Assembly (NCBI RefSeq): GCF_001267535.1
Contig: NZ_JRXE01000018.1
Span: 40,421-104,420, forward strand
DNA length: 64,000 nt
Direction: 5' to 3'
Source: Winslowiella iniecta
Lineage (GTDB): Bacteria; Pseudomonadota; Gammaproteobacteria; Enterobacterales; Enterobacteriaceae
Shown here: positions 7,675 to 38,004 of the stretch, in pieces
Position numbering within the stretch: the first letter of the stretch is position 1
Layout: every line of letters starts with the position of its first letter
Notes under the pieces: model-generated
Told to the model about the DNA's origin: nothing
Seen by the model: the letters and a program-made list of their open reading frames with translations, nothing else
Databases searched by the model: none
Position numbers and translations under genes: made by a program

Positions 7675-7715
7675 AAGCCAATAATTGGTCACAGTTTTGC
7701 CGTCACGGGGGATAA

Positions 7716-15873: not shown

Positions 15874-16419
15874 ATGAAAAAAGTATTTACTACTCTTGGG
15901 GCGCTAGCGGCATTAGTAATGGCTCAACAGGCTTTTGCAGCAGACGGCACAGTTAACTTCACTGGTAGCATTGTTAATGCGCCATGTAATGTCATTATTG
16001 GTGATCTTAACCAGACAGTGCAATTGGGGCAGGTACGCACGGCAAAATTCACGGCAGTCGGCAGTAAATCCGACCCACAGCCGTTTAGTATCAAGCTGGA
16101 GAATTGTGATATTAGCGGTACTGATCCACTGACTAAGGTGACTATACAGTTCGACGGTGACCCGGTGCCGGGGCCAGGAACAGGTAACAGTACCTTGTTC
16201 GGTGTTGGACTGGCGACCAGTGCGGCGAAAAACGTTGGGGTAGAAATTGCCGATTACAGAACTAACACCCGAATTAATAATGGTGTGCCAAGTGCTGTAT
16301 TTGATCTTGCCCCTGGGCAAACAACATTACGCTTCATTTCCAGCTATGTATCCACCGCAGCTGCTGTTATTCCGGGTACCGGTAATGCTACAGCTCAGTT
16401 CAGCCTGGTCTATCAGTAA
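15874..16419 (+). CDS. Chaperone-usher fimbria major subunit (FimA-like pilin)
   Basis: About 181 residues: Sec signal peptide cleaved after QQAFA, then ADGTVNFTGSIVNAPCNVI, the pilin N-terminal donor strand and first cysteine. The disulfide partner is in LENCDI. The C-terminus is NATAQFSLVYQ, the penultimate-tyrosine beta-zipper motif bound by the chaperone. ATG at 15871 is also in frame, but the AAGGA site is better spaced from 15874. First gene of a fimbrial operon that runs on into lipid-synthesis genes; a stem-loop follows it. Confidence 0.93.
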   Translation: MKKVFTTLGALAALVMAQQAFAADGTVNFTGSIVNAPCNVIIGDLNQTVQLGQVRTAKFTAVGSKSDPQPFSIKLENCDISGTDPLTKVTIQFDGDPVPGPGTGNSTLFGVGLATSAAKNVGVEIADYRTNTRINNGVPSAVFDLAPGQTTLRFISSYVSTAAAVIPGTGNATAQFSLVYQ

Positions 16420-16453
16420 CCCGTGATGGTTTATTAGATTATCACTTTCGGTA

Positions 16454-16481
16454 AGGCCGGGCGGAATGTCCTTCCCGGCCT
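16454..16481 (+). terminator. Intercistronic hairpin after the major pilin gene
   Basis: Perfect 8-bp stem AGGCCGGG / CCCGGCCT with a 12-nt loop in the 90-nt gap between pilin and chaperone genes, with no U-tract. Such elements commonly stabilise or partly attenuate transcripts so the major pilin is made in excess. It is unlikely to be a full terminator. Confidence 0.6.
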
Positions 16482-16509
16482 GTATAATAATTATCTGATT
16501 GGATATATT

Positions 16510-17196
16510 ATGAGTATCTGGCGCAGCTCATTGTTTCTGTTCTCATTTCTCTTTGCTTCTGCCACTCTGGCGAATGGTATTTCGGTGGGGGCAACGCGTG
16601 TAATTTATGATGCCAGAAGTAAAGAAGCATCAATGACAGTGCTAAATAATTACAGTGCTGCTTATTTAATCCAGTCCTGGGTTGAAGATGAGAAGGGGGG
16701 AAAGAGCGATTCCTTTATTGTGACTCCGCCGCTTTTTCGCCTTGATGGCAAAAAAGAGAATATGTTGCGTATTGTCCGAGTCAAAGAGGAGATGCCTGGC
16801 GATCGCGAGTCTGTTTACTGGCTTAGCATTAAAGCCATTCCCCCGGCACCGGAGAGCGACAAAAATACCCTGCAGCTGGCAATTAAAACGCGGATGAAAC
16901 TATTCTATCGCCCAGAGGGTATTCCGGGTAAGCCTGAGGATGCTTATAGCAAGCTAATCTGGAAACTGAACGGTGACCAGTTACAGGTGATCAATGACAG
17001 TGCTTACGCAGTGGTGATTTCGCGGGTGACGGTTGATGGTGGGGAGATGGGGAAAGTCGACTTTGTCGCGGCTAAAGACACGTTAATTATACCGAATAGC
17101 AATAAAAAACTTATCAGGCGCGGGAGTGTTGTTAAATATGGCGTCATTAATGACTTTGGCGGGAATACGTCCGCTTATCAGGGCGTGGTTCAATAA
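16510..17196 (+). CDS. Periplasmic fimbrial chaperone (PapD/FimC family)
   Basis: 228 residues with signal peptide (cleavage near ATLA). Two immunoglobulin-like domains are expected; ISVGATRVIYDARSKEASMTVLNN is the domain-1 start with the conserved Arg. VYWLSIKAIPP is the family signature and RMKLFYRPEGI carries the conserved Lys of the subunit-binding cleft. It folds pilins by donor-strand complementation and delivers them to the usher encoded next (37 nt downstream). Confidence 0.95.
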   Translation: MSIWRSSLFLFSFLFASATLANGISVGATRVIYDARSKEASMTVLNNYSAAYLIQSWVEDEKGGKSDSFIVTPPLFRLDGKKENMLRIVRVKEEMPGDRESVYWLSIKAIPPAPESDKNTLQLAIKTRMKLFYRPEGIPGKPEDAYSKLIWKLNGDQLQVINDSAYAVVISRVTVDGGEMGKVDFVAAKDTLIIPNSNKKLIRRGSVVKYGVINDFGGNTSAYQGVVQ

Positions 17197-17233
17197 AAAT
17201 AAAAAAAGATAATATGCATCAAGGAATGATGAT

Positions 17234-19801
17234 ATGAAAGGCTTGTCTATCCCTGAACAGAGTCGATTTATACTTTCTCTGTTAGTTGGTTATATTGTTA
17301 TTTATGTGCCGTCACTGGCGGCGACACCGACAACGTATAACCCGAGTTTTCTGGAAAATATTAACGGCCAGAATGCAGTGGCGGATTTGAGCGCTTTCAC
17401 GCTCTCCCCCCAGGCACAGCTACCCGGTACCTATCGGGTCGCCGTTTATGTCAACGGAAGCTACAGTGGTTACACGGAGGAGTTCATTTTCAGCCACTCT
17501 GAAAACTCTGCCAATGATGAGTTGCAACCCTGTCTGAATCTGGCGCAATTAAAAAAGTTTGGCGTAATGGTCGAGGCTTTTGCAGCGCTCAGGGATGAAA
17601 AATACCAGCAGCAAGCCTGTGTCCCTTTTCAGAAAATCATTCCGCAATCTGCGGCTGAGTTTGTGTTTTCTCAGCAACGGCTTAATTTGAGCTTTCCACA
17701 GGCATCAATGATACGAACTGCCCGTGGTGAGGTCGATCCTTCACGCTGGGATGACGGTATTCCTGCCGCACTGCTCGATTACAGCTTTAGCGGGAGTGAA
17801 CAGCTAAAGCGCGAAAACAGCGGTAATGGCAGATCACAATATCTTAACTTACGCAGTGGCCTGAATCTTGGAGCATGGCGACTGCGCAATTATTCTACCT
17901 GGTATAACCAGCCACGGGGCGCCAGCTGGCAAACCATTAACAGTTATCTGCAACGCAATATTGTCGCGCTGAAGTCGCAACTCACGGTCGGTGATAGTTT
18001 TTCGCCGGGCGAGATTATCGACAGTATTAAGTTTCGCGGTGTGCAACTCGGTTCCGATGACAGCATGTATCCGGATAGTTTACGGGGGTTCGCGCCCGTT
18101 ATTCGAGGCATCGCTCAGACCAGTGCCCAGGTGACCATCCGGCAGAATAACTATGTTATTTATCAGACTTATGTCCCTCCCGGACCGTTTATTATTGCCG
18201 ATCTGTTTCCCACCTCTTCAAGTGGTGATCTGGATGTCACCATCACTGAGGCGGATGGCAAGGTTCAGCACTATATTCAGGCGTTTTCCGCCTTACCGAT
18301 TATGCAGCGTGAAGGGCGAATAAAATATAACCTGGCTGCCGGTGAGTATCGCGGAGGCAATGATCGTCAGAGCAGCAATTTCGCCCAGGGATCTCTGATG
18401 TGGGGCTCACCGCTGGGAATGACACTGTATGGCGGTGCGCTGGGGGCGGAGAAGTACCAGTCAGCGGTACTGGGGTTGGGCAAGAATTTCGCTTCTTTCG
18501 GGGCGCTTTCTTTTGATATCACCCAATCACTGGCCGATTTGCATAATAGTGACGGACGGCGTGACGGGCAGTCGCTGCGTTTCCTTTATGCCAAATCCTT
18601 TGCTGAAAGTGGCACCCACTTTCGCCTGCTGGGCTACCGCTATTCTACCGAGGGCTTTTATACCTTTGATGAAGCAATGAAGGCCAATGGGCGGCTGGAT
18701 CATCAGAATCCAAACACCTCCTCGTCTTATCGTAAACGCAGCCAGCTTCAGGGTTCGCTTAACCAGAGAGTCAGTGATAACGGTTCGGTATTTTTTAACC
18801 TCAGTCGTCAGGATTACTGGGATGGAAACCGCAACCAGCTGTCAATGCAGACCGGCTATAACGGCAACTGGCAGGGGATAAGCTATGCACTTTCTTACAG
18901 TCTTAGCCAGTCGTCGCGCAATGATGCCAGTAACGACAACATTGTGTCTTTTAGTATGTCGGTGCCGATTGATGATTTGCTGCGTCGACCGGTCTGGACC
19001 AACTATTCATTAACCCGCGGTGGTGGTCAGACAACACAGCAGGCAGGGGTTAGTGGCTCATTATTAGAAGATAACAATCTGAGCTATAGCGTGCAGCAAA
19101 GCTACAGTCATAACGGAAACGGTGCCAGTGGCAATGCTTCGCTGGCCTACAGCGGAACTCAAGGTAGCAGCCAGTTAGGTTATTACTATAACCCTAATCA
19201 GCAGCAATTCACCTATGGACTGCGTGGTGGCGTCGTGGGCCATGAGGATGGGGTCACCTTATCGCAGTCGCTGAATGAGACCGTTGCTTTGGTTAAAGCA
19301 CCGGGTGCCAGTCATCTGCGCGTCTTAAGTAACAGCGGGGTAAGCACCGACTGGCGTGGCTATGCAGTGGTTCCTTCGTCGGTTGCCTATCGCGAAACGC
19401 GTATCCGGGTTGATGCCACCTCACTGGATAATAACGCGGAGCTACTGGAAACGGCTAAAGATGTGGTTCCTACCCGTGGAGCAGTCGTCAGGGCCGAGTT
19501 TGCTACCCGTGTCGGACATCGTGTGATGATGCCTCTGCACCAATCTAACGGCAAGCTGGTGCCGTTTGGTGCCATGGTGTCGCTAGTCGATGATCGTGCC
19601 AAAGAGCCGCTGGCGGCCATTGTCGATGAACGCGGTCAGGTTTATCTCACCGGATTACCAGAAAAAGGGCAATTAAAAGTGAAGTGGGGGCAGGACAGGA
19701 CTCAGTCCTGTACGGTCAATTATCATCTGCCAGCGGAAATTAAATCATCAACACCGTTAATTACTCTGTCGCAGCAACAGTGCCAGCAGGGTCAGGAATA
19801 A
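17234..19801 (+). CDS. Outer-membrane fimbrial usher (FimD/PapC family)
   Basis: 855 residues. It has a signal segment, an N-terminal chaperone-binding domain (FLENINGQNAVADLSAFT...PGTYRVAVYVNG), and a 24-strand barrel with the plug and the conserved RGFAPVIRGIAQTSAQVTIRQN region (about 290-310). The C-terminal domains run to a C-terminal cysteine pair (QSCTVNY...QQQCQQ). It secretes and orders pilins. It is full length, with no frameshift seen, and is followed by the adhesin after 2 nt. Confidence 0.97.
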   Translation: MKGLSIPEQSRFILSLLVGYIVIYVPSLAATPTTYNPSFLENINGQNAVADLSAFTLSPQAQLPGTYRVAVYVNGSYSGYTEEFIFSHSENSANDELQPCLNLAQLKKFGVMVEAFAALRDEKYQQQACVPFQKIIPQSAAEFVFSQQRLNLSFPQASMIRTARGEVDPSRWDDGIPAALLDYSFSGSEQLKRENSGNGRSQYLNLRSGLNLGAWRLRNYSTWYNQPRGASWQTINSYLQRNIVALKSQLTVGDSFSPGEIIDSIKFRGVQLGSDDSMYPDSLRGFAPVIRGIAQTSAQVTIRQNNYVIYQTYVPPGPFIIADLFPTSSSGDLDVTITEADGKVQHYIQAFSALPIMQREGRIKYNLAAGEYRGGNDRQSSNFAQGSLMWGSPLGMTLYGGALGAEKYQSAVLGLGKNFASFGALSFDITQSLADLHNSDGRRDGQSLRFLYAKSFAESGTHFRLLGYRYSTEGFYTFDEAMKANGRLDHQNPNTSSSYRKRSQLQGSLNQRVSDNGSVFFNLSRQDYWDGNRNQLSMQTGYNGNWQGISYALSYSLSQSSRNDASNDNIVSFSMSVPIDDLLRRPVWTNYSLTRGGGQTTQQAGVSGSLLEDNNLSYSVQQSYSHNGNGASGNASLAYSGTQGSSQLGYYYNPNQQQFTYGLRGGVVGHEDGVTLSQSLNETVALVKAPGASHLRVLSNSGVSTDWRGYAVVPSSVAYRETRIRVDATSLDNNAELLETAKDVVPTRGAVVRAEFATRVGHRVMMPLHQSNGKLVPFGAMVSLVDDRAKEPLAAIVDERGQVYLTGLPEKGQLKVKWGQDRTQSCTVNYHLPAEIKSSTPLITLSQQQCQQGQE

Positions 19802-19803
19802 AT

Positions 19804-20835
19804 ATGTTATCTATTGCGAAAATATTATCAGGATTATTGCTGATGGCGATCAGTGCCCAGGCTTATGCTGGCGCTTGTAGCCCCGCCGGTGGAGTAAAGA
19901 GGTATGAGTTTGTTTATACGCCCAGCCTGACATCGCCGGATGATAACCGTCCCGGCCTTACTCTGCCGCCGCATGACTGGAGCGCCACCGGAGGTGAGTA
20001 CAGTATGCATTGCCTGTGTAACAGCGGTACATACTATGATGTTTATTACACGGCAAAAAGCACGCTGCCAGAGGGGTCGCCTGGGTACTATATCGTCCTC
20101 GATCAATACCTTGAAGCTGCGACTGAGATCTATGTAAAAGGTGGCTTGTTGGCCTACAAAGCGGTGCCGTTTACTAACCTGAGCAATCAATACAGTCAGG
20201 CTCCGGGTGCGGTTCCCCTGCGCTGTAACAGTGATGTCACCGGGTTTGAAACCGGCTCAAGAGGGACGATTACGCTGAGGTTTCTGAAAGCTTTTGTGGG
20301 CATACGTGATATCCCCCTTGTCGAACTGGCCAGAATCTACGCTGCGACTGACAATCAGGTTCCTGAAAATAACTCTGCGCTGGTTAGTGTCGTCACGATG
20401 AGAGGAAGAGTGACTGTGGTGCAAGGTTGTGATCTTCAGGGTAATCAGCTTAATGTTGATTTCGGCTCACTGCATGCCTCGAAGTTTAATCAACAGGGGC
20501 AGAAACCTGATGGATTTACTCCGCGTAGCTATTCGTTAACGTTTAATTGCAATAATATTGATAATGGAGCTACGCTGGAATTATATTTTGAAGCGCGTAA
20601 TGATTCCAGTTATCCGAATGCTATTGCTACCAATAACAGTAATATTGGCGTGGTGATCGAAAATGAACAGGGGGCGATTATTAAGCCGAACCAGGATCGT
20701 ATGCCGATTAATTTTGACTATCAGTCACAGGTTGCGAGCACAACCATTAAAACTTATCCCGTCAGTACCACAGGCGTAACCCCTGCTACCGGACCGTTTA
20801 ACGCGATGGCAACGCTTAAAATTGACATTCAGTAA
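19804..20835 (+). CDS. Fimbrial tip adhesin (two-domain, FimH-like)
   Basis: 343 residues starting MLSIAKILSG, signal peptide to AQAYA. The N-terminal half (about 20-185) has several cysteines and no pilin motif, consistent with a receptor-binding lectin domain. The C-terminal half, from VTVVQGCDLQGNQLNVDFG to ATLKIDIQ, is a pilin domain. Twice pilin length and last place in the fimbrial set suggest the tip subunit. The receptor is unknown. The stop is only 5 nt before the phosphopantetheinyl transferase gene, so fimbria and lipid genes appear co-transcribed. Confidence 0.85.
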   Translation: MLSIAKILSGLLLMAISAQAYAGACSPAGGVKRYEFVYTPSLTSPDDNRPGLTLPPHDWSATGGEYSMHCLCNSGTYYDVYYTAKSTLPEGSPGYYIVLDQYLEAATEIYVKGGLLAYKAVPFTNLSNQYSQAPGAVPLRCNSDVTGFETGSRGTITLRFLKAFVGIRDIPLVELARIYAATDNQVPENNSALVSVVTMRGRVTVVQGCDLQGNQLNVDFGSLHASKFNQQGQKPDGFTPRSYSLTFNCNNIDNGATLELYFEARNDSSYPNAIATNNSNIGVVIENEQGAIIKPNQDRMPINFDYQSQVASTTIKTYPVSTTGVTPATGPFNAMATLKIDIQ

Positions 20836-20840
20836 ATAAT

Positions 20841-21212
20841 ATGAATATTGGGATTGATATTGTCGAACATAGCCGGATATTACAGGCGGTATCCCGAAGT
20901 GGTGCTGGATTTATTGCGCGGGTATTAAGTGATGAAGAGCAGCAGAGATTGGGAGATGTGCACGAAAATATCCATCGTTTTTCCGGTGTATGGGCAGCCA
21001 AGGAAGCAGCGGTAAAAGCGCTGGGTAGCGGTTTCCGGGATGGTATATCTTTTTATGATATTCAGATTCAGCATAATGAAGATGGCGCACCTGCTTATCA
21101 TTTTAGTGGGGCGTTTAAGATTCGTTATTTACAATGCGGATATACACGTTCGGCACTTAGCATTTCACACTGCCAGAGCCATGCCGTTGCGGTTGCGGTA
21201 TTCACCCGTTAA
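20841..21212 (+). CDS. Holo-ACP synthase-type 4'-phosphopantetheinyl transferase
   Basis: AcpS-like protein of 123 residues. The metal/CoA motif MNIGIDIVEHSRI at the N-terminus and FSGVWAAKEAAVKALG (about 50-65) are the two AcpS signatures. It should transfer phosphopantetheine from CoA to the ACP encoded 1.4 kb downstream. Because the core acpS normally sits by era/pdxJ elsewhere, this is a dedicated second copy (inference). First gene of the lipid-synthesis section. Confidence 0.9.
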   Translation: MNIGIDIVEHSRILQAVSRSGAGFIARVLSDEEQQRLGDVHENIHRFSGVWAAKEAAVKALGSGFRDGISFYDIQIQHNEDGAPAYHFSGAFKIRYLQCGYTRSALSISHCQSHAVAVAVFTR

Positions 21213-21235
21213 TAAATGTCGACAAAGGATGTTGA

Positions 21236-21991
21236 ATGTCTGTTTACCCCGACTTATCAGATAAAAGCGTGGTTATTACTGGTGCTAATGGTGATATAGG
21301 CCTGGCAATCTGTGAAAAATATTTGAATCTCAATTGTCAGGTGTTCGCTGTGGCGCATAGTCACCAGAATATGCTGCAACAGCTTAAAAGCAGCCATCCC
21401 CGTGGCGATTATTTAATCATTAAAAGCTGTGATATTACGGATGCTGATCAGGTGCAGAAACTGGTTGCTGAATTAGAGCAGCAGATCCGTTGTGTGCATG
21501 TGCTGGTGAATAATGCCGGGTTATGCAGTGATAATCTGTTTAGCGCTATGAACTATGAACAGTTTGACCGTGTGATCAAGGTGAATCTGTACGGCACTTT
21601 TAACCTGTGTAAATCGCTGTTGGGGATGTTGCGCAGTGCCAGAGGTGCGACGGTGGTAAACGTCTCTTCTGTGGCTGGGGTGACCGCCAGTTTTGGTCAG
21701 GTTAACTACAGCGCGGCCAAAGCGGGAATAAATGGTCTGACGCGTTCTCTGGCGGCCGAATATGCAGCGAAAGGTATCCGGATTAATGCGGTAGCGCCGG
21801 GCATGATTGAGTCAAAAATGGTGAAAAAGGTGCCGCGTCAAATTGTGCAGACTGTTGTCTCTGCCACACCGTTAAAGCGCCTTGGGCGCGCAGAAGAGAT
21901 AGCCGATGCCATAGCTTTTTTAAGCTCTTCGGCTTCCGGATTTATCGTTGGTCAGACGCTGGTGGTAGATGGCGGTTTAGTGATGCGTTAA
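21236..21991 (+). CDS. 3-oxoacyl-ACP reductase (FabG-like SDR)
   Basis: Short-chain dehydrogenase/reductase of 251 residues. Seen: cofactor motif TGANGDIGLA, NNAG at about 92-95, catalytic Ser in VNVSSVAG, and YSAAKAG (Tyr-x3-Lys). The C-terminal GFIVGQTLVVDGG is typical of FabG. It would reduce beta-ketoacyl-ACP to 3-hydroxyacyl-ACP with NADPH, between the condensing and dehydrating enzymes of this operon. Confidence 0.92.
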   Translation: MSVYPDLSDKSVVITGANGDIGLAICEKYLNLNCQVFAVAHSHQNMLQQLKSSHPRGDYLIIKSCDITDADQVQKLVAELEQQIRCVHVLVNNAGLCSDNLFSAMNYEQFDRVIKVNLYGTFNLCKSLLGMLRSARGATVVNVSSVAGVTASFGQVNYSAAKAGINGLTRSLAAEYAAKGIRINAVAPGMIESKMVKKVPRQIVQTVVSATPLKRLGRAEEIADAIAFLSSSASGFIVGQTLVVDGGLVMR

Positions 21992-22007
21992 CTGATGAGG
22001 AATAAGG

Positions 22008-22589
22008 ATGTCCCGATTAGATAAGAGCCTGGTGTCGGCCAGTTTATTGCTTCAGATTGGTGCCTGGCGTGCACCCATATTTATGATTGATCGTATTGCC
22101 GATTATAAGCCTGGAGAGAATGCTTCGATTACTGTGGTTAAGCATGTGACGTTTAATGAGCCTTATATAACAGGGCATTATCCTGATAACCCGGTGATGC
22201 CAGGCGTGATGATTGCGGAAGTATTCAGTCAGGCCAGTGAATATTTAAGCCTGCTGAATGATTTTACCGATCGTTATCAAAACGAGTGGAGAAAAGCGCT
22301 GGTCAGTTTTGATGATGTGGCAAAAGCACTGACTACAGACAGTGGCGTCGCAACAATCATCGCTGAACGTAAGCGTATTATTGGTTATCTGGTTGCACAA
22401 AATATTAAGTTTAAACATGTGGTTTTTCCTGGGGATAGTTTATATGTCACCAGTCAGCTCACAGCCGTAGATGAAAAGGGGTTCTGTCATTATAACGTTG
22501 AGGCGCGCGTTGGGCGCCATATTGCCAGCTGCGGAAGGATTATTAATTACCGTAGCGAAAATAAACAGAGTGAGCGTTCGGGGCGTTAA
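22008..22589 (+). CDS. 3-hydroxyacyl-ACP dehydratase (FabZ-like hotdog protein)
   Basis: 193 residues, longer than core FabZ (about 151). The active-site motif ITGHYPDNPVMPGVMIAEVFSQASEYL has the catalytic His and, 14 residues on, the Glu of the FabZ/FabA fold. RFK-type segments such as KRIIGYLVAQNIKFKHVVFPGD follow. It would dehydrate 3-hydroxyacyl-ACP. A ribosome site (AAGGA) precedes the ATG, 16 nt after the FabG-like stop. Confidence 0.88.
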   Translation: MSRLDKSLVSASLLLQIGAWRAPIFMIDRIADYKPGENASITVVKHVTFNEPYITGHYPDNPVMPGVMIAEVFSQASEYLSLLNDFTDRYQNEWRKALVSFDDVAKALTTDSGVATIIAERKRIIGYLVAQNIKFKHVVFPGDSLYVTSQLTAVDEKGFCHYNVEARVGRHIASCGRIINYRSENKQSERSGR

Positions 22590-22618
22590 CATCAATAATG
22601 GATTAAGTAAGAGGTGAT

Positions 22619-22951
22619 ATGGAATATCAAAGCGAAATAGCAAAACGAAAAGTTGTGCTGGAGAAAATCAAGCTGGGGTTAATTGAGCGTCTTAACCTTT
22701 ATCAGCGCGTGGAACAAATTGATGATGATACACCACTGTTTGGTCATGGATTAAAACTGGATTCCGTTGATGCAACCGAGCTGATGGTTTTATTAGATGA
22801 GATGTTTGGAATTCGCGTTTCCGTTGGTGATGATCCTTCTTATATGCGCAGTGTCAATAGCCTGGCGTCATTTGTGTTACAGCACCAGCATGTAGCAGCC
22901 AGCCCGGCTGTTGCTCCATCACTGAATACTGCAAAGATTAATCAGGGATAA
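22619..22951 (+). CDS. Acyl carrier protein
   Basis: 110 residues with the phosphopantetheine site in GHGLKLDSVDATELMVLLDEMFGI (Ser of DSV). The four-helix ACP core is flanked by an N-terminal helical extension and an Ala/Pro tail. It would carry the growing acyl chain between the enzymes of this operon and is the presumed substrate of the AcpS-like protein. It differs clearly from housekeeping AcpP, which has the short acidic DSLDTVEL form. Confidence 0.92.
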   Translation: MEYQSEIAKRKVVLEKIKLGLIERLNLYQRVEQIDDDTPLFGHGLKLDSVDATELMVLLDEMFGIRVSVGDDPSYMRSVNSLASFVLQHQHVAASPAVAPSLNTAKINQG

Positions 22952-22957
22952 CTCGCT

Positions 22958-24163: not shown

Positions 24164-24241
24164 TCACCTTTTTTTAGCCATTATTATTTCTTGCTGCCCA
24201 CCGGATTGGGCAGCTTTTATTCTTGCCAGGGAGTAGCCGTT

Positions 24242-28074: not shown

Positions 28075-29125
28075 GGCGGTTCCGCCAGCGGCGGTATATG
28101 TCGTGGGTTTAAGCGTACTTCAGCCTGCCGCCGCGCCAGTTGCTTATCAGCCTGACGGATTGAATGCCTGGGAAAGCCAGCTCTGGTATCAGGCTCGTCG
28201 GCGCAGCGGTGTTTCGCAGTGGCTATTCAATCGCTTTGGTACCTCAACCGATAATGCTATTCCGGTCAGTGCCCGTCTGCGCGATGCGGACTGTCGCGCT
28301 TCTCTGCGCGCGATTGAGCAGGCTTGCTGCCAGGCGTTTGCCAGCCTGGATCGCCAGCAGAGGCAGCGCATTCGTTGCGAAAGAACGGCGCTGATCTATT
28401 TTGACTGCTGGGGAGAAAGCGCGCTGTTTGAAACGGATGTCAGCTGGCGTGATGCGCTCAGTCTTGATGTACTACCCGCCAGTATCGTGCGTGATTACAA
28501 CATTAAAGAGTTCTCCTGCAAGGTGCGCGGTGAACATCAGGGTTTCCTGCTGGCGCTGCGGGTGGCGATCGATCAGCTGAACAGTGGCAGTATCGATACC
28601 GTGTTGCTGTGCGGCCACTATCGTAGCTTACCGCTAATGGTGTTTTCTCAGCATAGCGCGGCCAGCGTCAGGGCGGCGAAAGGCACCACTCACATCAGCG
28701 TCGAACGTAGCGCGGCGCTGATTCTGCGCAAGGCGGCAGGCGAAGGCGCGGCTCTGCATCTCAGTGATTACTTTTTGTTGTCGGGTCAGCCGAAGCTGGC
28801 AGCACAGCAACTGGCGCAGCGCTGGCAGCGACACTGGACGCCCGGATGCTGCGCGTTGCTGGGAGCAACCCACACCAGTGCTGCAATGCTGACGCTGGAG
28901 CAGGCAGCGTTGAAAATCATGCCGCTACCCTGGCACGCCCTTACTACGACCTATGGCGATAGCGGCTGTATTAATCCGCTACTGGCATTGTTGCACCTGC
29001 CTTCGGTGCGCATCGCGGCAAACAATCAGCATCCGCAACTGCTGGTTAATGCCCTCGATGGTGCCGGAGCAGGCTGGCTGATGAGCATATGGCCCGATGC
29101 GCGGGAGAAATCATCATGGCGATAA
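28061..29125 (+). CDS. Strongly degenerate ketosynthase-like protein
   Basis: 354 residues, shorter than a full ketosynthase (about 410). The fold is recognisable from the helix after the nucleophile and the strand LNSGSIDTVLLCG, but the nucleophile region reads KVRGEHQGF with no Cys in place. The GH of the second His motif is GD (TTTYGDSGCINP). Likely a non-catalytic partner or scaffold. Start ATG at 28061; the end overlaps the ATPase gene by 10 nt. Confidence 0.65.
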   Translation: MVSAEAVPPAAVYVVGLSVLQPAAAPVAYQPDGLNAWESQLWYQARRRSGVSQWLFNRFGTSTDNAIPVSARLRDADCRASLRAIEQACCQAFASLDRQQRQRIRCERTALIYFDCWGESALFETDVSWRDALSLDVLPASIVRDYNIKEFSCKVRGEHQGFLLALRVAIDQLNSGSIDTVLLCGHYRSLPLMVFSQHSAASVRAAKGTTHISVERSAALILRKAAGEGAALHLSDYFLLSGQPKLAAQQLAQRWQRHWTPGCCALLGATHTSAAMLTLEQAALKIMPLPWHALTTTYGDSGCINPLLALLHLPSVRIAANNQHPQLLVNALDGAGAGWLMSIWPDAREKSSWR

Positions 29126-29814
29126 TTCCAGCCCGCCCCTTGCCGCTGGTGTCATTGCAGCAGGCTGGCAAATGCTATGGCAAAGGCGCGGGTAAGGTCC
29201 AGGCATTACAGGAGGTCACTGCCGGGATTTGGCCGGGAGAGTTTATTGCCCTGTGCGGCCCTTCCGGCAGTGGAAAAAGCACCCTGCTGAATCTGGTCGG
29301 CGGCATTGATTATCCCACTTCGGGAGAAGTATGGCTGATGGGGCGGAATTTACGCTTGCTCAGCGACAGGGAAACCGCCCGCCTGCGCGCGCAATCGGTC
29401 GGCTTCGTTTTCCAGTTTTTCAATCTGTTACCGGTGCTCAGCGTTTACGACAATATTTATTATCCGCTGATGCTGAACGGTTACAGTCGCAAACTGGCAG
29501 ATGAGCAGGTCATGGCGATGATCGAGAGGGTCGGGCTGATTAATCACTATCGCCGCCCGCCCGGCGAGCTGTCAGGCGGGCAGCAGCAGCGGGTGGCGAT
29601 TGCCCGCGCGCTGGTTAAACGTCCGGCGCTGGTGGTCGCTGATGAGCCAACCGGCAATCTCGATATGCGTACTGGCGAGGAAATTATTGAGCTGCTGCTG
29701 GAGATGAATGCGCAGTCAGACACCACTTTGGTGATTTCAACCCACTCGCCGCAGCTGCGTGCCAGCGCCAGACGGATACTGGAAATTGAAGACGGGAAGC
29801 TAAAAGATGATTAA
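29116..29814 (+). CDS. LolD/MacB-type ABC transporter ATPase
   Basis: 232 residues. Walker [15 protein letters not shown]-loop QFFNLLPVLSVYDNI, signature [15 protein letters not shown], Walker B LVVADEPTGNLD, H-loop STHS. The family powers extraction of lipoproteins or substrates from the inner membrane together with FtsX-type permeases, and such a permease is two genes downstream. Starts inside the previous gene; the ATG at 29116 gives MAIIPARPLP, a normal N-terminus. Confidence 0.92.
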   Translation: MAIIPARPLPLVSLQQAGKCYGKGAGKVQALQEVTAGIWPGEFIALCGPSGSGKSTLLNLVGGIDYPTSGEVWLMGRNLRLLSDRETARLRAQSVGFVFQFFNLLPVLSVYDNIYYPLMLNGYSRKLADEQVMAMIERVGLINHYRRPPGELSGGQQQRVAIARALVKRPALVVADEPTGNLDMRTGEEIIELLLEMNAQSDTTLVISTHSPQLRASARRILEIEDGKLKDD

Positions 29815-30478
29815 ACCGGGGTGTTTCATAGGGCTGCTGCTTAGCGGCTTGATACTGTTTGCGCTGCCGGTGTTAGCCGATATCGTCACCAGCCAGCGGA
29901 TGCTGGAGCAGCTCAGTCAGCTACGGCCTGGCGACAGCGGCGCACAGGCGATTGTCCAGCTGTATACCCGACAGCAGGTGCCGCAGGCGGTGGCCCGGCT
30001 TGAGCAACTCCTGGCACAAAGCCCGCAAGATCGCACGCTGAAAATCTATTTCGGTTACGGCCAGTTATTGCTGGCGGCGGAGTACTGGCGGCAGAAGAAC
30101 TATCTGCGGGCGGCTGAACTGGCGAAGCAGGGCTATTTTTATCTTGATGAAGCGGCCGAAAGCCCGCCGGATAACTGGCGCATCCGTTATCTGCGCGCAC
30201 GCTACGATGCTTTCCTTGCGGCATTTGAAGGGCGCTGTGTGATAGCGCTAAGCGATACTGGCTGGCTACAGCAGCAGGCTGAGGTTCCGCTGCGTTTACT
30301 GCCGATGATTTCATTGATGCAACTGCATGCGGCGACCACCTGCCATCAGCCGCAACAGGCCGCCATCGCCCGACTCGCGCTGGCACAGGCGGGTATCACT
30401 GCTGACGGCCGTTCGCCATTTATTACTTCGGCGGAGATCGCTGACGTGTTGCAACCCTTGCTGGAGCCAACGCGATGA
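29807..30478 (+). CDS. Exported helical-repeat (TPR-like) protein of unknown function
   Basis: 223 residues with an N-terminal signal peptide or anchor (residues 5-24, ending LPVLA) and then mostly helical sequence with repeated Ala/Leu heptads resembling tetratricopeptide units (e.g. AVARLEQLLAQSPQDRTLKIYFGYGQLLLAAEYWRQ). Probably periplasmic. It sits between the ATPase and permease genes, overlapping them by 8 and 4 nt, so it is likely an accessory subunit of that transporter (inference). Confidence 0.7.
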   Translation: MIKPGCFIGLLLSGLILFALPVLADIVTSQRMLEQLSQLRPGDSGAQAIVQLYTRQQVPQAVARLEQLLAQSPQDRTLKIYFGYGQLLLAAEYWRQKNYLRAAELAKQGYFYLDEAAESPPDNWRIRYLRARYDAFLAAFEGRCVIALSDTGWLQQQAEVPLRLLPMISLMQLHAATTCHQPQQAAIARLALAQAGITADGRSPFITSAEIADVLQPLLEPTR

Positions 30479-31800
30479 GCACGCTGCTGTTTTATCTTGC
30501 CAGCGCGATAATGCTCTATGCGCTGCTGCTGGTACTGTACTGTGCGATCCGGCGGCCTGTCGATCTGCGCTACACCTTTCTTAACCTGTTCCGCCAGCGT
30601 CGCCGTTCCGGCGTAACGCTGTTCGCGATTACCCTCGGCGGGGTGGCGGTGTTTATTTTTGGTGGCTTTGCTGATTACACCTTCTGGGCGCTGCGTGAAC
30701 AGACCATTCGCACCAATCTTGGTCATATCCAGTTGTATCAGAAGGGTTATCTCGCCAGCGGCTCGACCAACACGCTGCAATACACCATTACTGATTTTAA
30801 GCGGATTAAGCAGCAGCTGATGGCGGACAGCAGCATTGCCCCGCAAATCAAATCCATCACCGGTCAGCTGGAGTTCACCGGCATTCTCTCCCGTTATGAA
30901 AAGGGCGCATCAACGTTTTTTTCCGGCGTCGGAATTGAAGCGGAAAGCTCGTTAATCCTCGGTTCGCTTGACCATATTATTTCCGGCAGCGATTTGTCGC
31001 GTGTTCAGTCGCAGGCGATAACTCTTGGTGCCGGAGTGGCTTCCGCACTGGAGGCAGGCTATGGCGACTGGGTTGATTTGCTGGTAGTTAATGCCGAAGG
31101 GGGGCAAAACGCCATGTCAGCGCAGGTGCGAGGGGTGTTTCAATCCGGCGTGAAAGCCTATGACGATGCCACCATCAAGCTGCCGCTAAGCAAGGCACAG
31201 CAACTGCTGCAAACCGATGGGGTGAGCAAAATCATCATTCTGCTGAATGATACGGCGCAAACCCAGGCGGTATTGACGCGGATTAATCAGTTGTTGCAGC
31301 GCCATCAGTTGTCACTGGAAGCGCGGTCCTGGGATCAACTGGCGATTTTCTATCATCAGGTGGTGAATCTGTTTCAGGGAATCTTCTGGTTTATCAAAGC
31401 TATCGTCAGCGTGATCGTGATGTTTATGATTGGTAATACCCTGATGATGAATGTGGTGGAGCGCACGCGCGAGATTGCCACCTTACGTGCGCTGGGCTTA
31501 ACCCGGGGCTATATCAGCCGTCTGTTTGTGCTGGAAGGGGTCGTGATTGGGCTAATCGGTTGCGCGTGCAGCGTGCTGAGCGGGGTTGCGCTGGCGGCAT
31601 TAATCAATATTCATGGGGTGCCGATGCCGCCCTCGCCGGGTTACAGCCAGGGCTATCTGGCATTTGTGATGTGGGATCAGAATTTCCGGCTGTTCTGGTT
31701 CGCATGTGCGTTACCGCTGGTGACCGCGGTGATCGCCTCGATTATTCCTGCACATCGCGCCGGCAGGCAGGTGATTGCGCAGGCATTTCGTTTTGTTTAA
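30475..31800 (+). CDS. FtsX/LolC-type ABC transporter permease
   Basis: 441 residues. An N-terminal part with hydrophobic segments (about 5-22 and 41-62) is followed by a large periplasmic domain (about 65-290) and three C-terminal membrane segments (about 305-330, 350-380 and 405-425). NTLMMNVVERTREIATLRALGLTRGYI is the conserved FtsX-domain coupling segment seen in LolC/LolE/MacB. With the LolD-like ATPase it should extract a hydrophobic product from the inner membrane. Confidence 0.9.
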   Translation: MSTLLFYLASAIMLYALLLVLYCAIRRPVDLRYTFLNLFRQRRRSGVTLFAITLGGVAVFIFGGFADYTFWALREQTIRTNLGHIQLYQKGYLASGSTNTLQYTITDFKRIKQQLMADSSIAPQIKSITGQLEFTGILSRYEKGASTFFSGVGIEAESSLILGSLDHIISGSDLSRVQSQAITLGAGVASALEAGYGDWVDLLVVNAEGGQNAMSAQVRGVFQSGVKAYDDATIKLPLSKAQQLLQTDGVSKIIILLNDTAQTQAVLTRINQLLQRHQLSLEARSWDQLAIFYHQVVNLFQGIFWFIKAIVSVIVMFMIGNTLMMNVVERTREIATLRALGLTRGYISRLFVLEGVVIGLIGCACSVLSGVALAALINIHGVPMPPSPGYSQGYLAFVMWDQNFRLFWFACALPLVTAVIASIIPAHRAGRQVIAQAFRFV

Positions 31801-31821
31801 TCAGCTTTACAGGGAGAGAAG

Positions 31822-32577
31822 ATGAAGGGACAACGGGTGCTGATAACCGGCGCCGGACGAGGTATTGGTCTGGCGCTGGCGAATAAATTTGCTCAGGAAG
31901 GTTATGACCTGATTCTTAATTATCGCAGCGAGCAGGGTAAAAGCCGCGCCAATTTGCAGCGTTTTATCACTCGCGGGCTGGCAAACAACGTCAGCGTGAC
32001 GCTGGCGAAAGCGGATATGGGCGAGCCACGTGAAATTAGCGAGATGGTTAACGCCCTGAAAGATCAGGGCATCGGGCGCATCGATCATCTGATCCTTAAC
32101 GCCGCTTCGACACCGTTTAAACATTTTTCCGAGATGACGCGCAGCGACTGGAAGCTGCTGCTGAACGTCAATCTGATCGGCAATGTTGCCTGTGTTAATC
32201 AGGTCGTTCCGCTGATGAGCGCGGGCGGTACGCTGTGCGCGATATCCAGTCTTGGCAGCCGGCGGGTTTTACCAAAATACCCGCTGGGCGTCATGAAATC
32301 GGCGCTGGAGAGCCTGGTCAGCTATCTCGAAGTGGAGTTGTACGATAAGCGTATTCGGGTCAACGGCATCTGCGCCGGTATCGTCAACACAGATATGGTG
32401 CCGTTTTTAAAAGATTTGTGGCCGGAGATGTTTCGCCGCTACGAAAGCAATCCGCGTCGCTGGCTGGTGGAGCCGGAAGAGGTGGCTGATATTGCGCTGT
32501 TTCTGGCATCAGAGCGCTCCAGCGCTATTCGCGGCACTACCCTGACCGCCGATCTCGGCATCACGCTGCAACCCTGA
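31822..32577 (+). CDS. SDR-family reductase, FabL-like (possible enoyl-ACP reductase)
   Basis: 251 residues. TGAGRGIGLAL cofactor motif, NAAST in place of NNAG, SSLGS, and the active-site stretch YPLGVMKSALESLVSYLEVEL, which resembles the YTTVGVSK region of FabL enoyl reductases more than the YxxxK of ketoreductases (Tyr and Lys here are five residues apart). If it is an enoyl reductase, the operon encodes a full reductive cycle. A ketoreductase or other SDR role is possible. Confidence 0.7.
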   Translation: MKGQRVLITGAGRGIGLALANKFAQEGYDLILNYRSEQGKSRANLQRFITRGLANNVSVTLAKADMGEPREISEMVNALKDQGIGRIDHLILNAASTPFKHFSEMTRSDWKLLLNVNLIGNVACVNQVVPLMSAGGTLCAISSLGSRRVLPKYPLGVMKSALESLVSYLEVELYDKRIRVNGICAGIVNTDMVPFLKDLWPEMFRRYESNPRRWLVEPEEVADIALFLASERSSAIRGTTLTADLGITLQP

Positions 32578-32624
32578 TGGATCAACTGCCTGCCCGTCAC
32601 GGCAGGCAAATGGAAAGGACGACC

Positions 32625-33455
32625 ATGAATCAGCGTTTATCCGGCTTCCTGCTGCTACTGATAGCGGCAGGTAGCCATGCAGAACTGCCGCAGGCACTAA
32701 AATCGCTGGATCGTGCGCAGCTTGACGCCCTGATGCAAGACGATCAGGAAGCGCGGCGCATTATCCGGCTGGCCGATCGGGTGCGTGCGCCCGACAGCCC
32801 ATTCCGTTATACCCTGACGCTGCTGGAGCATAAAGACGGGCGGGATCTTACTGACCGCCAGCAGACCCTCGATATCTCAATGCGTTTTTATAAGCCTTCG
32901 GAAATTCACGAAAAAGGCGATGCACGGGCACTGGCGCGCTATATCTTACCGGCCAGAGACAAAGGGAAAGTCTTGCTCTCAGACCTCGATAAGATGTGGT
33001 ATTACGCGCCGGATCTCCGTCGCCCCATTCCGATCTCCCGCCAGCAGCGGCTGACCGGGCAAATATCCAATGGCGATGTGGTAGCGGCGGATTTTGACTA
33101 CTCCTATATCTCGACCTTAGTGGCTGAAGAAGCCTGCGGTAGTCAGCAATGCTACAAGTTAGCGCTGAAGCGTCGCTGGGCTTATGTCACTTATCCGGCG
33201 ATTGAATATTGGGTAGAAAAGCAGAGTTATCGTCCGTATCGTGCGGATTTTCTGGCCGCTGACGGGCGGCTTATCAAACGCGCATGGTATAAGGACTACC
33301 GCACTGCGTTGGGCACCTTTCGTCCTCACCAGATTGTGATTGTCGATGCGCTGCATAAGGACAATTACACCACCATGAATTACTCGAAGATGGTGCTGGA
33401 GTCGTTACCCGAAAGCTATTTCCAGAAAGAGTATTTGCTCAGGTTCAACGGATGA
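32625..33455 (+). CDS. LolA-like outer-membrane lipoprotein-sorting-family periplasmic protein
   Basis: 276 residues from MNQRLSGFLLLLIAAGSHA (signal peptide). The rest matches the outer-membrane lipoprotein-sorting-protein family (LolA/LppX-like half barrel): DISMRFYKPSEIHEKGDARALARYILPARDKGKVLLSDLDKMWYYAPDLRRPIPIS and later YPAIEYWVEKQSYRPYRADF. Such proteins ferry hydrophobic cargo across the periplasm and often occur beside FtsX or MMPL exporters. The ATG at 32625 has GGAAAGGA upstream; its stop overlaps the next start (ATGA). Confidence 0.82.
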   Translation: MNQRLSGFLLLLIAAGSHAELPQALKSLDRAQLDALMQDDQEARRIIRLADRVRAPDSPFRYTLTLLEHKDGRDLTDRQQTLDISMRFYKPSEIHEKGDARALARYILPARDKGKVLLSDLDKMWYYAPDLRRPIPISRQQRLTGQISNGDVVAADFDYSYISTLVAEEACGSQQCYKLALKRRWAYVTYPAIEYWVEKQSYRPYRADFLAADGRLIKRAWYKDYRTALGTFRPHQIVIVDALHKDNYTTMNYSKMVLESLPESYFQKEYLLRFNG

Positions 33456-34867
33456 AGCTGCAGCCAGTCTCCGGTCGGCCTGGATACTCAGGGCTGTGGT
33501 GGTCACTGCTGATGCTTATCACTCCCGCTGCCTGGGCGCTGGACTGCCAGTGGCAACGTGGCTTTATCGGTACTGAGGCCAGCAGCAAAAGCAACGGCAG
33601 TAGTGAATGGAATAATAGCCGCCACGGGTTTGGTGCCAGTCAGTCGGTCAACGGCTATCTCTCGACCAAAGCCGGTTGTGATATACAGCCCGGAATTAGC
33701 GCAACACTACAGGCGGGTGCTGAGTATGCGCGACAGTTTTCCCGACTCGGCGAGTTTGAGGGCGCGCGCCAGCAAGGTTTGCTGGTGGTTAATCAGGGCT
33801 ATCTTAGCTGGGCGATGCGCGACGATCTGGCGCTGGATATCGGGAAAATCCGTCGCAGCAGCGGTTATCTGCTCGCCATTTCACCGCTGGATGTGCTGCG
33901 TAATCCCGTCAGTTCTATGCGCAATGTGCAGGTTAATCCGTCCGGTGCCCGCTGGCGCAATTTCTATGATGAAGGCTCTTTAGGATTAAGTGCTTCGCTG
34001 TTTCGCGATGAGGGCACTTACGAACTGCTGGCTTTGCCACAGCTGACGCACGGCCGTAATCCGCGTCGTTCGGCCGCGGACTGGAAAATGCTGGAGCGCA
34101 CCAACGCCAGCGACCGCTACAGTCTTTCCTATACCTCCGGTGGTTTTGACCGCTTTAACCCGACGGTCGTGCTGCTCGCCGGGCAGACACCGGCACTGGC
34201 GCTTGGCGGCAGTAGCGCGCTAAATGACAAGATTATCTTTAACATTGAGGGCGCGCTGACGCAGGGACAAAAGTGGCGTCATCTTAATGGTCAGGTGGCG
34301 CAACAGCTGCAAAGTCAGCAACCGGTGGATAACCTTTTTCAGCAAAATAGCCAGCATATGGGGGCTGAGCTGGGCGTGGGGCTGCGTTATGCCGGTCAGT
34401 ATGAAACGGAATACGGCATTGAGTATTACGCGCAAAGCCAGGGCTACAGCCGCGCCGAATGGCGCACGATGTTTGATACTGCGAAGTGGGTGAATGGCGG
34501 TTATCAGCCACATATTCCCCCCGAATGGCTGACGCCGGAGCTGCGTGAGGGCTACCGACAGTACGCGCGCTGGATGGCAGCAGAAGTGGATAACAGCGGG
34601 CGTTACGGCTATCTGCAAGGCAAACACTATCTCTCTGCATGGATTAGCCGCCAGAACAGCGGGATACTGCGCCCCAGCATCACCTTATCGGGGCTGATGA
34701 ACCTGGTGGATGGCAGCAACATGATGACGCTACAGGTCAATTCATATTTAACCGAAGCGCTGGAAGGTTATGTCGGCACCCGAGCCGCGCTGGGATCGAC
34801 GCGTTCGGAGTTTGGCTTTTTTGGTGAAAAAGGCGTTTTCTATATGGGACTAAGGATGGTGTGGTGA
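33452..34867 (+). CDS. Predicted outer-membrane beta-barrel protein, unknown function
   Basis: 471 residues with a signal peptide ending near AAWA. The body has amphipathic beta-strand patterning and ends GVFYMGLRMVW, a C-terminal aromatic typical of BAM substrates. Position after the LolA-like carrier suggests an outer-membrane acceptor or exporter for the lipid product (inference). I do not recognise a named family; DUF1302-type barrels are the nearest analogues in similar gene sets. Confidence 0.65.
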   Translation: MKLQPVSGRPGYSGLWWSLLMLITPAAWALDCQWQRGFIGTEASSKSNGSSEWNNSRHGFGASQSVNGYLSTKAGCDIQPGISATLQAGAEYARQFSRLGEFEGARQQGLLVVNQGYLSWAMRDDLALDIGKIRRSSGYLLAISPLDVLRNPVSSMRNVQVNPSGARWRNFYDEGSLGLSASLFRDEGTYELLALPQLTHGRNPRRSAADWKMLERTNASDRYSLSYTSGGFDRFNPTVVLLAGQTPALALGGSSALNDKIIFNIEGALTQGQKWRHLNGQVAQQLQSQQPVDNLFQQNSQHMGAELGVGLRYAGQYETEYGIEYYAQSQGYSRAEWRTMFDTAKWVNGGYQPHIPPEWLTPELREGYRQYARWMAAEVDNSGRYGYLQGKHYLSAWISRQNSGILRPSITLSGLMNLVDGSNMMTLQVNSYLTEALEGYVGTRAALGSTRSEFGFFGEKGVFYMGLRMVW

Positions 34868-35928
34868 TGTTGCCTGATGCTTACCAATACTTCTGGCGCT
34901 GGTTAAAGGTCAGCGCAGTCAGATTGCTGCTGCCTTGCGCGCTGTTCAGCGCCTTGTTTGCCGGTAATGTTACCGCTGTTTCGCTGCAGCAACTGATAAT
35001 TGGCTCCGGTATTATTTGTGCGGCACTGGCATATATTGTGATACGCGACGCGTACAGCTACTGGTTTTATCTTATCCATGCGCTGAAAGTGACTCATCCT
35101 GTTGGTGTCAGCAGCAAAGAATTGCCAGACTGGTATTTATCGCCCTGGCTGGCTTCACTGCTGACATTTGCGGCAATGGCGGCCAGCTGCCTGCTGTTTG
35201 ACTGGCTGTTTTCCGCCTGGCGTTATCCGTTTATTTACCTCAGCGGTTTACTGTTGATGCCGTTACTTATCACTCTGGTGCTGGCCTGGGGGGTAAAAAA
35301 TTATGCCGCGCTGATAGCGGAAAAATCCTCAATCACCGTTGGTGGCAAACAGAAAACCGTCACTGATTATCTGGTGGCGGATCTTGTAGTTAGCCTGCTG
35401 ATTAACGCTGTCGTAGTGCTGCCGCTGGTGGAGAAACCGACTTTCAGCCTGCATAGCGGCTATCAGCCGCTGGGCTTTGCGTGGGCTTTTACCCTGCTGC
35501 TGACCATCGTGTTAACCATGATGCTGTTTTTTGGCCGGGTGAAGTGCGGTTATGTGATGCTGGGAGAGCGGCTGGCGGGCAATACCGCGGCTAATTTCAG
35601 CCGCATCCCGGCATGGTTGCCGCGTCATCCGGCACGCTATCTGATCTATCTGCTGCTGATTGTCGGCTGGGCGCTGTTTCTTAGCTATCTGGTCGCGGTT
35701 GCTGCTTTTCCTGTTAACTTTATTCCACTCTATTACACCGGTTTGCTGCCGGTGATGATGATCTGGTGGCTGGAGCGCTACCGGCGCATTACTGACAGCT
35801 ACCTGTTCGCCAGTGCGATCCATTGTCAGCTGGAGAGCAAAAGACTGCTGCTCTCACACTATCGGGCAATTACTGACGGTCGCCCACCCACACCACCATC
35901 ACCCGATCCTGTCCATGCTGGCGACTGA
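34867..35928 (+). CDS. Polytopic inner-membrane protein, unknown function
   Basis: About 353 residues with roughly eight hydrophobic segments spread along the chain, hence an integral membrane protein. ATG at 34867 overlaps the preceding stop (TGATG); two in-frame GTGs lie just upstream. No motif is recognised. The last 20 residues (DGRPPTPPSPDPVHAGD tail) are read from the antisense of malS, whose 3' end it overlaps by 59 nt, suggesting the original C-terminus or terminator was lost when this segment joined malS. Confidence 0.65.
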   Translation: MLPDAYQYFWRWLKVSAVRLLLPCALFSALFAGNVTAVSLQQLIIGSGIICAALAYIVIRDAYSYWFYLIHALKVTHPVGVSSKELPDWYLSPWLASLLTFAAMAASCLLFDWLFSAWRYPFIYLSGLLLMPLLITLVLAWGVKNYAALIAEKSSITVGGKQKTVTDYLVADLVVSLLINAVVVLPLVEKPTFSLHSGYQPLGFAWAFTLLLTIVLTMMLFFGRVKCGYVMLGERLAGNTAANFSRIPAWLPRHPARYLIYLLLIVGWALFLSYLVAVAAFPVNFIPLYYTGLLPVMMIWWLERYRRITDSYLFASAIHCQLESKRLLLSHYRAITDGRPPTPPSPDPVHAGD

Positions 35929-37933: not shown

Positions 37934-38004
37934 CGCTCTCCTTATCAGGGCAGCAAACAGAATTTTCAGATATGCAGTTAATATGGACGCTGATGAAAAA
38001 AACA

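Follow-up and report, generated by a model that had tools for sequence, protein, structure and literature searches.

We analysed a stretch of 64,000 nucleotides from Winslowiella iniecta (contig NZ_JRXE01000018.1, positions 40,421 to 104,420 of the forward strand; hereafter the window), in which positions 15874–35928 carry 19 genes on one strand, as a preliminary description of this DNA had claimed; all are on the + strand, intact and open, with zero internal stops. The first four encode an LpfC-like chaperone-usher fimbria, and the other 15 form a cassette that joins a type II fatty-acid/polyketide-like synthase to a Lol-like export set. We hypothesize that a self-contained lipid cassette was placed, and then inherited, behind exported-adhesin operons, and that it makes a dedicated lipid of the outer membrane, expressed alongside adhesins that are exchangeable; we put the probability of this reading at roughly 0.56. 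It is built on gene families, catalytic residues, conservation, adjacency, short gaps and recurrence, all of which were observed, and on the finding that two unrelated adhesin systems, fimbriae and two-partner secretion (TPS), occupy the same slot upstream of the cassette in the same orientation.

The 19 genes are given below with the evidence for each assignment. Residue counts refer to a wider set of 67 cassette loci, which contains repeats of the same species.

15874..16419, + strand: fimA-like major pilin; Pfam PF00419 1.8e-22; best NCBIfam match LpfA, 130 bits, below the cut-off of 221
16510..17196, + strand: periplasmic chaperone; PapD_N 5.6e-42; best NCBIfam match LpfB, 207 bits, below the cut-off of 360
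17234..19801, + strand: outer-membrane usher, LpfC-like; Usher 1.7e-193; NCBIfam LpfC 961 bits, below the cut-off of 1271; also placed in an usher tree
19804..20835, + strand: tip adhesin, LpfD-like; Fimbrial 1.5e-24; best NCBIfam match LpfD, 201 bits, below the cut-off of 412
20841..21212, + strand: AcpS-like phosphopantetheinyl transferase; ACPS 6.5e-20; K-E-K residues kept in 64–65 of 65 scored loci
21236..21991, + strand: SDR1, ketoreductase (KR) type; adh_short_C2 2.4e-57; Y and K kept in all 66 scored loci
22008..22589, + strand: FabA/FabZ-like dehydratase (DH); PF07977 2.4e-16
22619..22951, + strand: acyl carrier protein (ACP); PP-binding 1.7e-06; attachment Ser present in all 66 scored loci
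22958..24163, + strand: GcvT-like protein (folate-binding aminomethyltransferase fold), the signature gene of the cassette; GCV_T 8.6e-30; T-protein structures 1.1e-18
24242..26803, + strand: KS-KS, a double ketosynthase (KS); two ketoacyl-synt domains (Pfam); FabF structures 1e-71; N half of the FabF-type catalytic kind
26800..28074, + strand: KS3, divergent ketosynthase-like protein without the active-site Cys; ketoacyl-synt 8.2e-15
28061..29125, + strand: KS4, very divergent, possibly of thiolase fold; no Pfam match; weak ACP_syn_III matches (best 0.011) in 5 of 17 relatives
29116..29814, + strand: LolD-type ABC ATPase; ABC_tran 5.2e-33
29807..30478, + strand: predicted periplasmic protein, possibly TPR-like; weak TPR matches (best 1.6e-4) in 5 of 17 relatives; N-terminal signal-like stretch by eye
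30475..31800, + strand: FtsX/LolCE-type permease; FtsX 4.3e-19 (FtsX/MacB_PCD); LolCE 8.5e-33, below cut-off; LolE structure 2.9e-20
31822..32577, + strand: SDR2, FabL-like (enoyl reductase type); NCBIfam FabL 5.9e-51, below cut-off; FabL structure 3oic 2.9e-36
32625..33455, + strand: LolA-like periplasmic lipid carrier; LolA_like PF17131 3.5e-39; LolA-superfamily structure 3buu 3.2e-35
33452..34867, + strand: predicted outer-membrane beta-barrel protein; AlphaFold model, pLDDT 85.8
34867..35928, + strand: multi-helix predicted inner-membrane protein; model pLDDT 88.9; distant homologue of E. coli YcdU (25% identity, 40.8 bits, plus position)

The first four genes bring together a pilin, a PapD-type chaperone, an usher and an adhesin, the complete set of a chaperone-usher fimbria. 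Among the cassette proteins, the ACP serine, the Cys-His-His triad of the N half of KS-KS and the KR Tyr/Lys pair are each present in all 66 scored loci, as in type II fatty-acid and polyketide synthases. The C half of KS-KS never has Cys at the aligned active-site position (66/66 loci; Glu is commonest, in 23), and the corresponding residue of KS3 is Ser in 63 of the 67 loci, Cys in one, and a gap or without match in three. Because the triad of the N half is kept while the C half and KS3 lack the Cys, the pattern in the alignments is that of a single catalytic KS and partners resembling chain-length factors; KS4, for which no relative was found among solved structures, is too divergent to judge. 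When KS-KS was compared with phage records, 28 matched, the five listed showing 28–31% identity. An alignment of about 310 residues relates the GcvT-like protein to T-protein; the aligned residue that we take to be the catalytic one of T-protein is acidic throughout, being Asp in 65 of the 67 loci and Glu in the other two.

Pfam left four of the 19 proteins without a match, namely KS4, the predicted periplasmic protein, the beta-barrel and the multi-helix protein. The ABC ATPase is called LolD-type by inference from its FtsX partner, and the permease also matches the LolF structure. The model of the barrel resembles porin and AlgE-type barrels (MOMP, AlgE, OprD-type) at E 1e-12 to 1e-9, with query-normalised TM-scores of 0.39–0.51 among the 50 matches listed, and the predicted barrel is therefore porin-like and assignable no closer. 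For the multi-helix protein, a fold search of the PDB returned zero matches at E ≤ 0.001.

What follows, from the individual reactions and their product to transcription as one unit and a role at the surface, is inferred. In the proposed pathway, AcpS would activate the dedicated ACP, and the catalytic KS would extend an acyl chain whose length or specificity may be set by the Cys-less KS-like partners. SDR1 would reduce the chain and the FabZ-like protein dehydrate it, while the FabL-like SDR2 could saturate it in the clade of the window. The GcvT-like protein may act on an intermediate of the cassette in a folate-dependent reaction, a one-carbon step or something related. The YcdU-like membrane protein would then hand over or flip the product, which would leave the inner membrane by way of the ABC/FtsX pair and cross the periplasm on the LolA-like carrier, with the beta-barrel perhaps assisting its insertion into, or passage through, the outer membrane. 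The lipid would be made together with the adhesin, which is a fimbria in the window and a TpsA filament elsewhere, and would tune the same surface.

Fourteen GcvT-like proteins were aligned, and two GcvT peptide patterns were scanned over one genome per species (84,980 species); since the loci were found with these patterns, distant relatives of the cassette would be missed. The scan returned 52 named loci, from Enterobacterales, Pseudomonas, Paraburkholderia, Acinetobacter, Desulfatitalea and some uncultured genomes. Broader sampling, with the window's own genome included, gave the cassette gene in 6 of 37 genomes at genus level, 29 of 392 at family level and 6 of 394 at order level; since no more than four first-look candidates per genome were scored at the last two levels, copies could be missed, and ordinary GcvT genes, which matched at 22–28% identity in most genomes, were not counted as cassette. 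Gene order is kept in all 13 comparators mapped over the full cassette, with a few losses: the Proteus locus is without the LolA-like, barrel and SDR2 genes, and SDR2, found in 7/7 mapped comparators without an adhesin, is absent from 6/6 with TpsA (SDR2 calls in the 67-locus table are unreliable owing to SDR1 cross-matches). In an Enterobacter locus (L014) the last cassette gene is recognised by position alone. The cassette is an independent, conserved unit.

Some copies carry or adjoin further elements. A gene for a secreted-looking protein of about 260 residues follows KS4 in Edaphovirga, Serratia silvae, Cedecea and two others, and is absent from the window and, on the maps, from Enterobacteriaceae bacterium B14. 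TPS-linked cassettes are also found on large plasmids, namely pEC105227L of Enterobacter bugandensis (L014) and a plasmid of Rahnella sikkimica (L015), and the Enterobacter plasmid cassette is flanked on each side by an IS6-family transposase gene.

What stands directly upstream of the cassette was classified by tblastn at more than 50 bits, using four fimbrial and five TPS queries and counting matches that lie between 12 kb and 1.5 kb upstream. Among the 52 named loci, TpsB was detected in 23 (21 of which have TpsA too), TpsA alone in 4, a fimbria in 2 and no adhesin in 23; adhesins of other kinds would be labelled 'none', one locus in that class (L073) comes without upstream DNA and is unjudgeable, and two loci (L035 and L080) have only about 5 kb upstream. 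A tally from maps of the 29 family genomes with the cassette, which overlap by species with the 52 named loci, gives a fimbria in 3, TPS in 15, TpsA only in 1, none in 9 and one unjudged at a contig end. In E. coli the partners are recognised by Pfam (TPS 3.3e-41, ShlB 7.5e-70) and have haemagglutinin-repeat domains too. The gap between TpsB and AcpS in the 23 TPS loci has a median of 14 nt and a range of −47 to 23, with starts taken from the longest open reading frames. In five loci of Proteus, Providencia and Morganella (L016, L053, L060, L061 and L081), TpsA adjoins the cassette with no TpsB match.

The TPS link also follows the phylogeny of the cassette, for which a FastTree of 57 loci (10 loci omitted) and a quick IQ-TREE of 31 rows (four near-duplicates and most TPS rows omitted) were built. 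All 31 TPS and TpsA-only leaves fall on one side of the former, across many genera, and the nine TPS or TpsA-only rows of the latter form one side with support 100. The preliminary description had proposed from the fimbria alone that the lipid partners a surface adhesin, and independent support for this proposal comes from another exported adhesin system, unrelated to the fimbria, which stands in the same place at a median gap of 14 nt in 23 loci.

The union of fimbria and cassette itself proved real, recurring with a related fimbria directly upstream in two other genera, in Edaphovirga cremea (L072) and in strain B14 (L047). Conserved adjacency thus holds for these two, but for just 2 of the 52 named loci, the remainder having TpsA and/or TpsB (27) or none detected (23); it follows that the two halves are mostly, though not always, apart in relatives, and that the union is not the normal state of the cassette. 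In both genomes the order is pilin, chaperone, usher, adhesin, second pilin, a LuxR-type regulator gene and AcpS, with 43 nt (Edaphovirga) or 349 nt (B14) between regulator and AcpS, whereas the window has neither the second pilin nor a LuxR-type regulator ahead of AcpS. The LuxR-type gene lies at 7101–7712 of the Edaphovirga locus and at 6858–7445 of the B14 locus; an Erwinia locus without fimbria (L039) also has such a gene before AcpS, at 7092–7883, below the Pfam cut-off.

To place the fimbriae, we built a tree of 24 ushers, comprising the three that are cassette-linked, 20 others from the same three genomes and one from genome G583 (low-scoring or fragmentary PF00577 matches were omitted). 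The three linked ushers and the unlinked G583 usher form one clade with support 0.927, within which the window pairs with Edaphovirga (0.998) and B14 with G583 (0.936). Ushers matching at E ≤ 1e-250 in 198 family genomes besides the window came only from Edaphovirga (60%) and G583 (51%), with at most four candidates scored per genome, and the nearest Edaphovirga usher is its cassette-linked one. The cassette trees likewise make the window and Edaphovirga sisters (1.0 in FastTree, 99 in IQ-TREE), while B14 stands beside Paraburkholderia (0.995 and 88); a single fimbria-linked clade is not rejected on the 31-row set (p-AU 0.149). Since the window and Edaphovirga are sisters, the linked ushers form one clade with that of G583 and a single origin is not rejected, the trees indicate that the union has been inherited in at least one lineage, with one or two origins possible. 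Chance adjacency was rejected, because by a rough estimate a same-strand usher should lie 6 kb or less upstream of any one gene in 0.2–1% of genomes, against recurrence with one usher clade. Also rejected were a union unique to the window, since two further genera share it, and a fimbrial linkage general for the cassette, given the two loci among 52.

The sequence speaks both for and against a common transcript of the 19 genes. The adhesin stop at 20835 and the AcpS ATG at 20841 leave the 5-nt gap that had been reported, and the later overlaps of 1–14 nt are borne out by the coordinates: there are seven, of 4, 14, 10, 8, 4, 4 and 1 nt, between successive genes from KS-KS through KS3, KS4, the ABC ATPase and the periplasmic protein to FtsX, and from LolA through the barrel to the multi-helix protein. 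A strong terminator splitting the adhesin from AcpS, which had been named as a possible refutation, was looked for and is not there, nothing terminator-like lying within the 5 nt. The claim of a single operon is not shown by the sequence: short gaps and overlaps favour one transcript for all 19 genes, but a hairpin after the GcvT-like gene and promoter-like matches, one of them over the AcpS start, speak against it. The hairpin is as follows.

24193–24214, + strand: terminator-like hairpin; perfect 8-pair stem with 6 G-C, then TTTTATTCTT; top-listed of the terminator scan

It sits in the 78-nt gap between the GcvT-like and KS-KS genes (24164–24241), which folds at −20.1 kcal/mol, and a weaker terminator-like site (20887–20907; 7 pairs, 3 G-C) lies 46 nt inside AcpS. 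Because the scan totals lie in the range of shuffles (terminators 21 against 21.1; promoters 28 against 21.3, sd 4.8), single sites of either kind are not significant. The same gap has predicted hairpins in many relatives; their sequences, compared by eye, differ between loci, and a conserved RNA element was rejected on that ground. The predicted hairpins of the window and its relatives fit an attenuator. GC content also steps from 0.47 to about 0.56 across this gap. Reading the step as a recent join was rejected since it occurs in relatives too, where it is smaller (median +0.04 in 21 TPS and 19 no-adhesin loci, each of at least 21 kb); four TpsA-only loci have no step.

Several observations weigh against a lipid coupled to adhesins, and some of them would be expected if the neighbourhood had no functional meaning, that is, if cassette and adhesin operons share variable regions and stand side by side or behind separate promoters, while the lipid works alone. 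No adhesin was detected beside the cassette in 23 of the 52 loci, and the lipid would therefore need no adhesin in cis. The E. coli cassette lies between pga and serX, a region that is heterogeneous according to PMC4951805. Genome G583 has a close relative of the linked usher and fimbria, yet does not figure in the list of 29 family genomes in which the cassette was found. A promoter-like match (20822–20849, 10/12) covers the AcpS start, and a transcript beginning there would start inside AcpS. Other points concern the integrity of the unit. The hairpin at 24193–24214 would split it, with a further promoter-like match just ahead (24160–24187, 9/12). A FabD-like acyltransferase (MAT), found in all 13 mapped comparators, is missing from the window (at 34867). 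Apparent frameshifts affect FtsX in G052, ACP in G053 and KS-KS in L015, and thus not every copy of the cassette need work. The five TpsA-only loci of Proteus, Providencia and Morganella gave zero LolA-like or barrel matches, and two distant Desulfatitalea loci (L079 and L080) keep the synthase genes with zero ABC, FtsX or LolA matches in the DNA examined, so that the export parts are not universal. Lastly, neither a lipobox nor an obvious acceptor was seen by eye in the pilin or in TpsA.

A neighbourhood without function does not readily account for a TPS link that spans many genera on one side of the cassette tree and has gaps near 14 nt, for a fimbria link involving one usher clade in three genera, or for two unrelated adhesins in the same position and orientation. 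We consider it unlikely, and continue to favour a dedicated lipid co-expressed with exchangeable adhesins.

A stronger form of coupling would have the lipid physically joined to the filament or to the secretion pore, as an anchor or acylation holding TpsA or the pilus at the surface. The exchange of two filament types at one slot would suit such a role, as would the TpsA proteins, in which no C-terminal effector domain was recognisable by eye, and the Morganellaceae loci in which TpsA adjoins the cassette without TpsB. However, inspection by eye and with Pfam turned up neither a lipobox nor a conserved acceptor residue nor a protein acyltransferase, and many genomes keep the cassette without a detected adhesin, which together make a covalent or pore-bound lipid improbable. 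The acyl-lipid that we favour, supplied by its own synthase and Lol-like line, might also be a functional partner (an anchor, a lubricant or a coat) of exported filaments that are exchangeable between chaperone-usher pili and TpsA, which would amount to a surface system of a new type; this more specific proposal we offer tentatively and regard as somewhat unlikely.

The locus in the window is chromosomal; mutS flanks it at one end, and recA, alaS and a tRNA-Ser/tRNA-Arg array at the other (genes named from translations). At its 3' end, a convergent amylase-family open reading frame (35870–38005, − strand) shares 59 nt (35870–35928) with the end of the YcdU-like gene. Ahead of the fimbrial genes, and divergent from them, is a gene that might act as their regulator, a role suggested by its position.

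14841..15230, − strand: winged-helix (Trans_reg_C) regulator gene; Pfam PF00486 6.3e-07

In E. coli the cassette appears to survive both whole and in remnants. The KS-KS gene is present in 370 of 5426 complete genomes (about 7%) and TpsA in 369, whereas ycdU, the last gene, is present in 2638, and therefore at least 2268 genomes match ycdU but not KS-KS. One annotated locus has the cassette flanked by pgaABCD and the serX tRNA and preceded by a TpsB pseudogene. The K-12 stretch from the end of IS3D through ymdE and ycdU (NC_000913.3 1095490–1097583; 3491–5584 of locus L088) matches the 3' end of the MAT gene and the entire last gene of that E. coli cassette with 97.9% identity over 2095 columns. 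We read ymdE-ycdU, on this alignment, as a deletion relic of the cassette 3' end. In PMC4951805, ymdE-ycdU is given as specific core of phylogroup A mastitis E. coli and is uncharacterised; the later PMC5422975 has ymdE as a malonyl-CoA-ACP transacylase, and its title disputes a mastitis E. coli pathotype. These two uncharacterised K-12 genes would thus gain an origin, and if the acyl-lipid does serve as partner of exchangeable filaments, laboratory K-12 carries the broken remains of such a lipid-filament system as ymdE-ycdU.

Some aryl polyene (APE) clusters contain an ammonia lyase, and the cassette could be taken for an aryl-polyene-like pigment cluster with a different exporter. It does have a KS with a chain-length partner, a KR, a DH and an ACP. 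By comparison with the E. coli CFT073 cluster apeA-R as described in PMC8253772, a type II KS with a further KS-type protein as chain-length partner, KR, DH, ACP and LolA-like carrier are common to both, and the APE lipid is likewise sent to the outer membrane, a likeness to our proposal. Six TpsA-linked comparators are without SDR2, and the chain could stay unsaturated there. The same paper gives the APE cluster an acyl-ACP synthetase, an RND exporter and acyl- and glycosyltransferases. In the cassette, by contrast, Pfam found no acyl-ACP synthetase, ammonia lyase, RND exporter, glycosyltransferase or lysophospholipid acyltransferase (four cassette proteins being matchless) and no family for aryl starter activation; an ABC/FtsX pair stands in place of the RND exporter, and the window has a FabL-like gene. 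The cassette is also set apart by its GcvT-like gene, Cys-less KS half, KS3, KS4, beta-barrel and linked adhesins. Filing it as an aryl-polyene cluster was rejected, as the defining features are lacking, and a pigment cluster with another exporter is quite improbable.

The outer-membrane lipid that we propose would be one whose cassette is, to the extent of the open-access literature, without a description (subscription papers and preprints lie outside that coverage). The findings point to a pathway undescribed there, with its KS gene in about 7% of complete E. coli genomes and in many genera, and through them the proposed pairing of lipid and protein adhesins can be put to a direct test.

Other known systems resemble parts of the locus. 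The LolCDE-LolA pathway shares with it an FtsX-type permease, an ABC ATPase and a LolA-fold carrier, whereas the cassette has one permease instead of LolC plus LolE, below the NCBIfam LolCE cut-off, and has a beta-barrel, with no LolB-like protein recognised by Pfam. Lpf-type fimbriae have the same order of fimA, chaperone, usher and adhesin, and LpfA-D are the best NCBIfam matches of the fimbrial proteins, but the set in the window lies below every curated cut-off and runs on into lipid genes. Two-partner secretion loci of the FHA type share the TPS, haemagglutinin-repeat and ShlB domains of the E. coli partners, and differ in that here the lipid cassette starts about 14 nt after the TpsB gene. 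The K-12 ymdE-ycdU stretch differs in that nothing but the cassette's 3' end is left there, IS3D lying at the junction. Taken together, the cassette resembles outer-membrane lipid clusters, and the exchange of partners between two adhesin systems is its surprising part.

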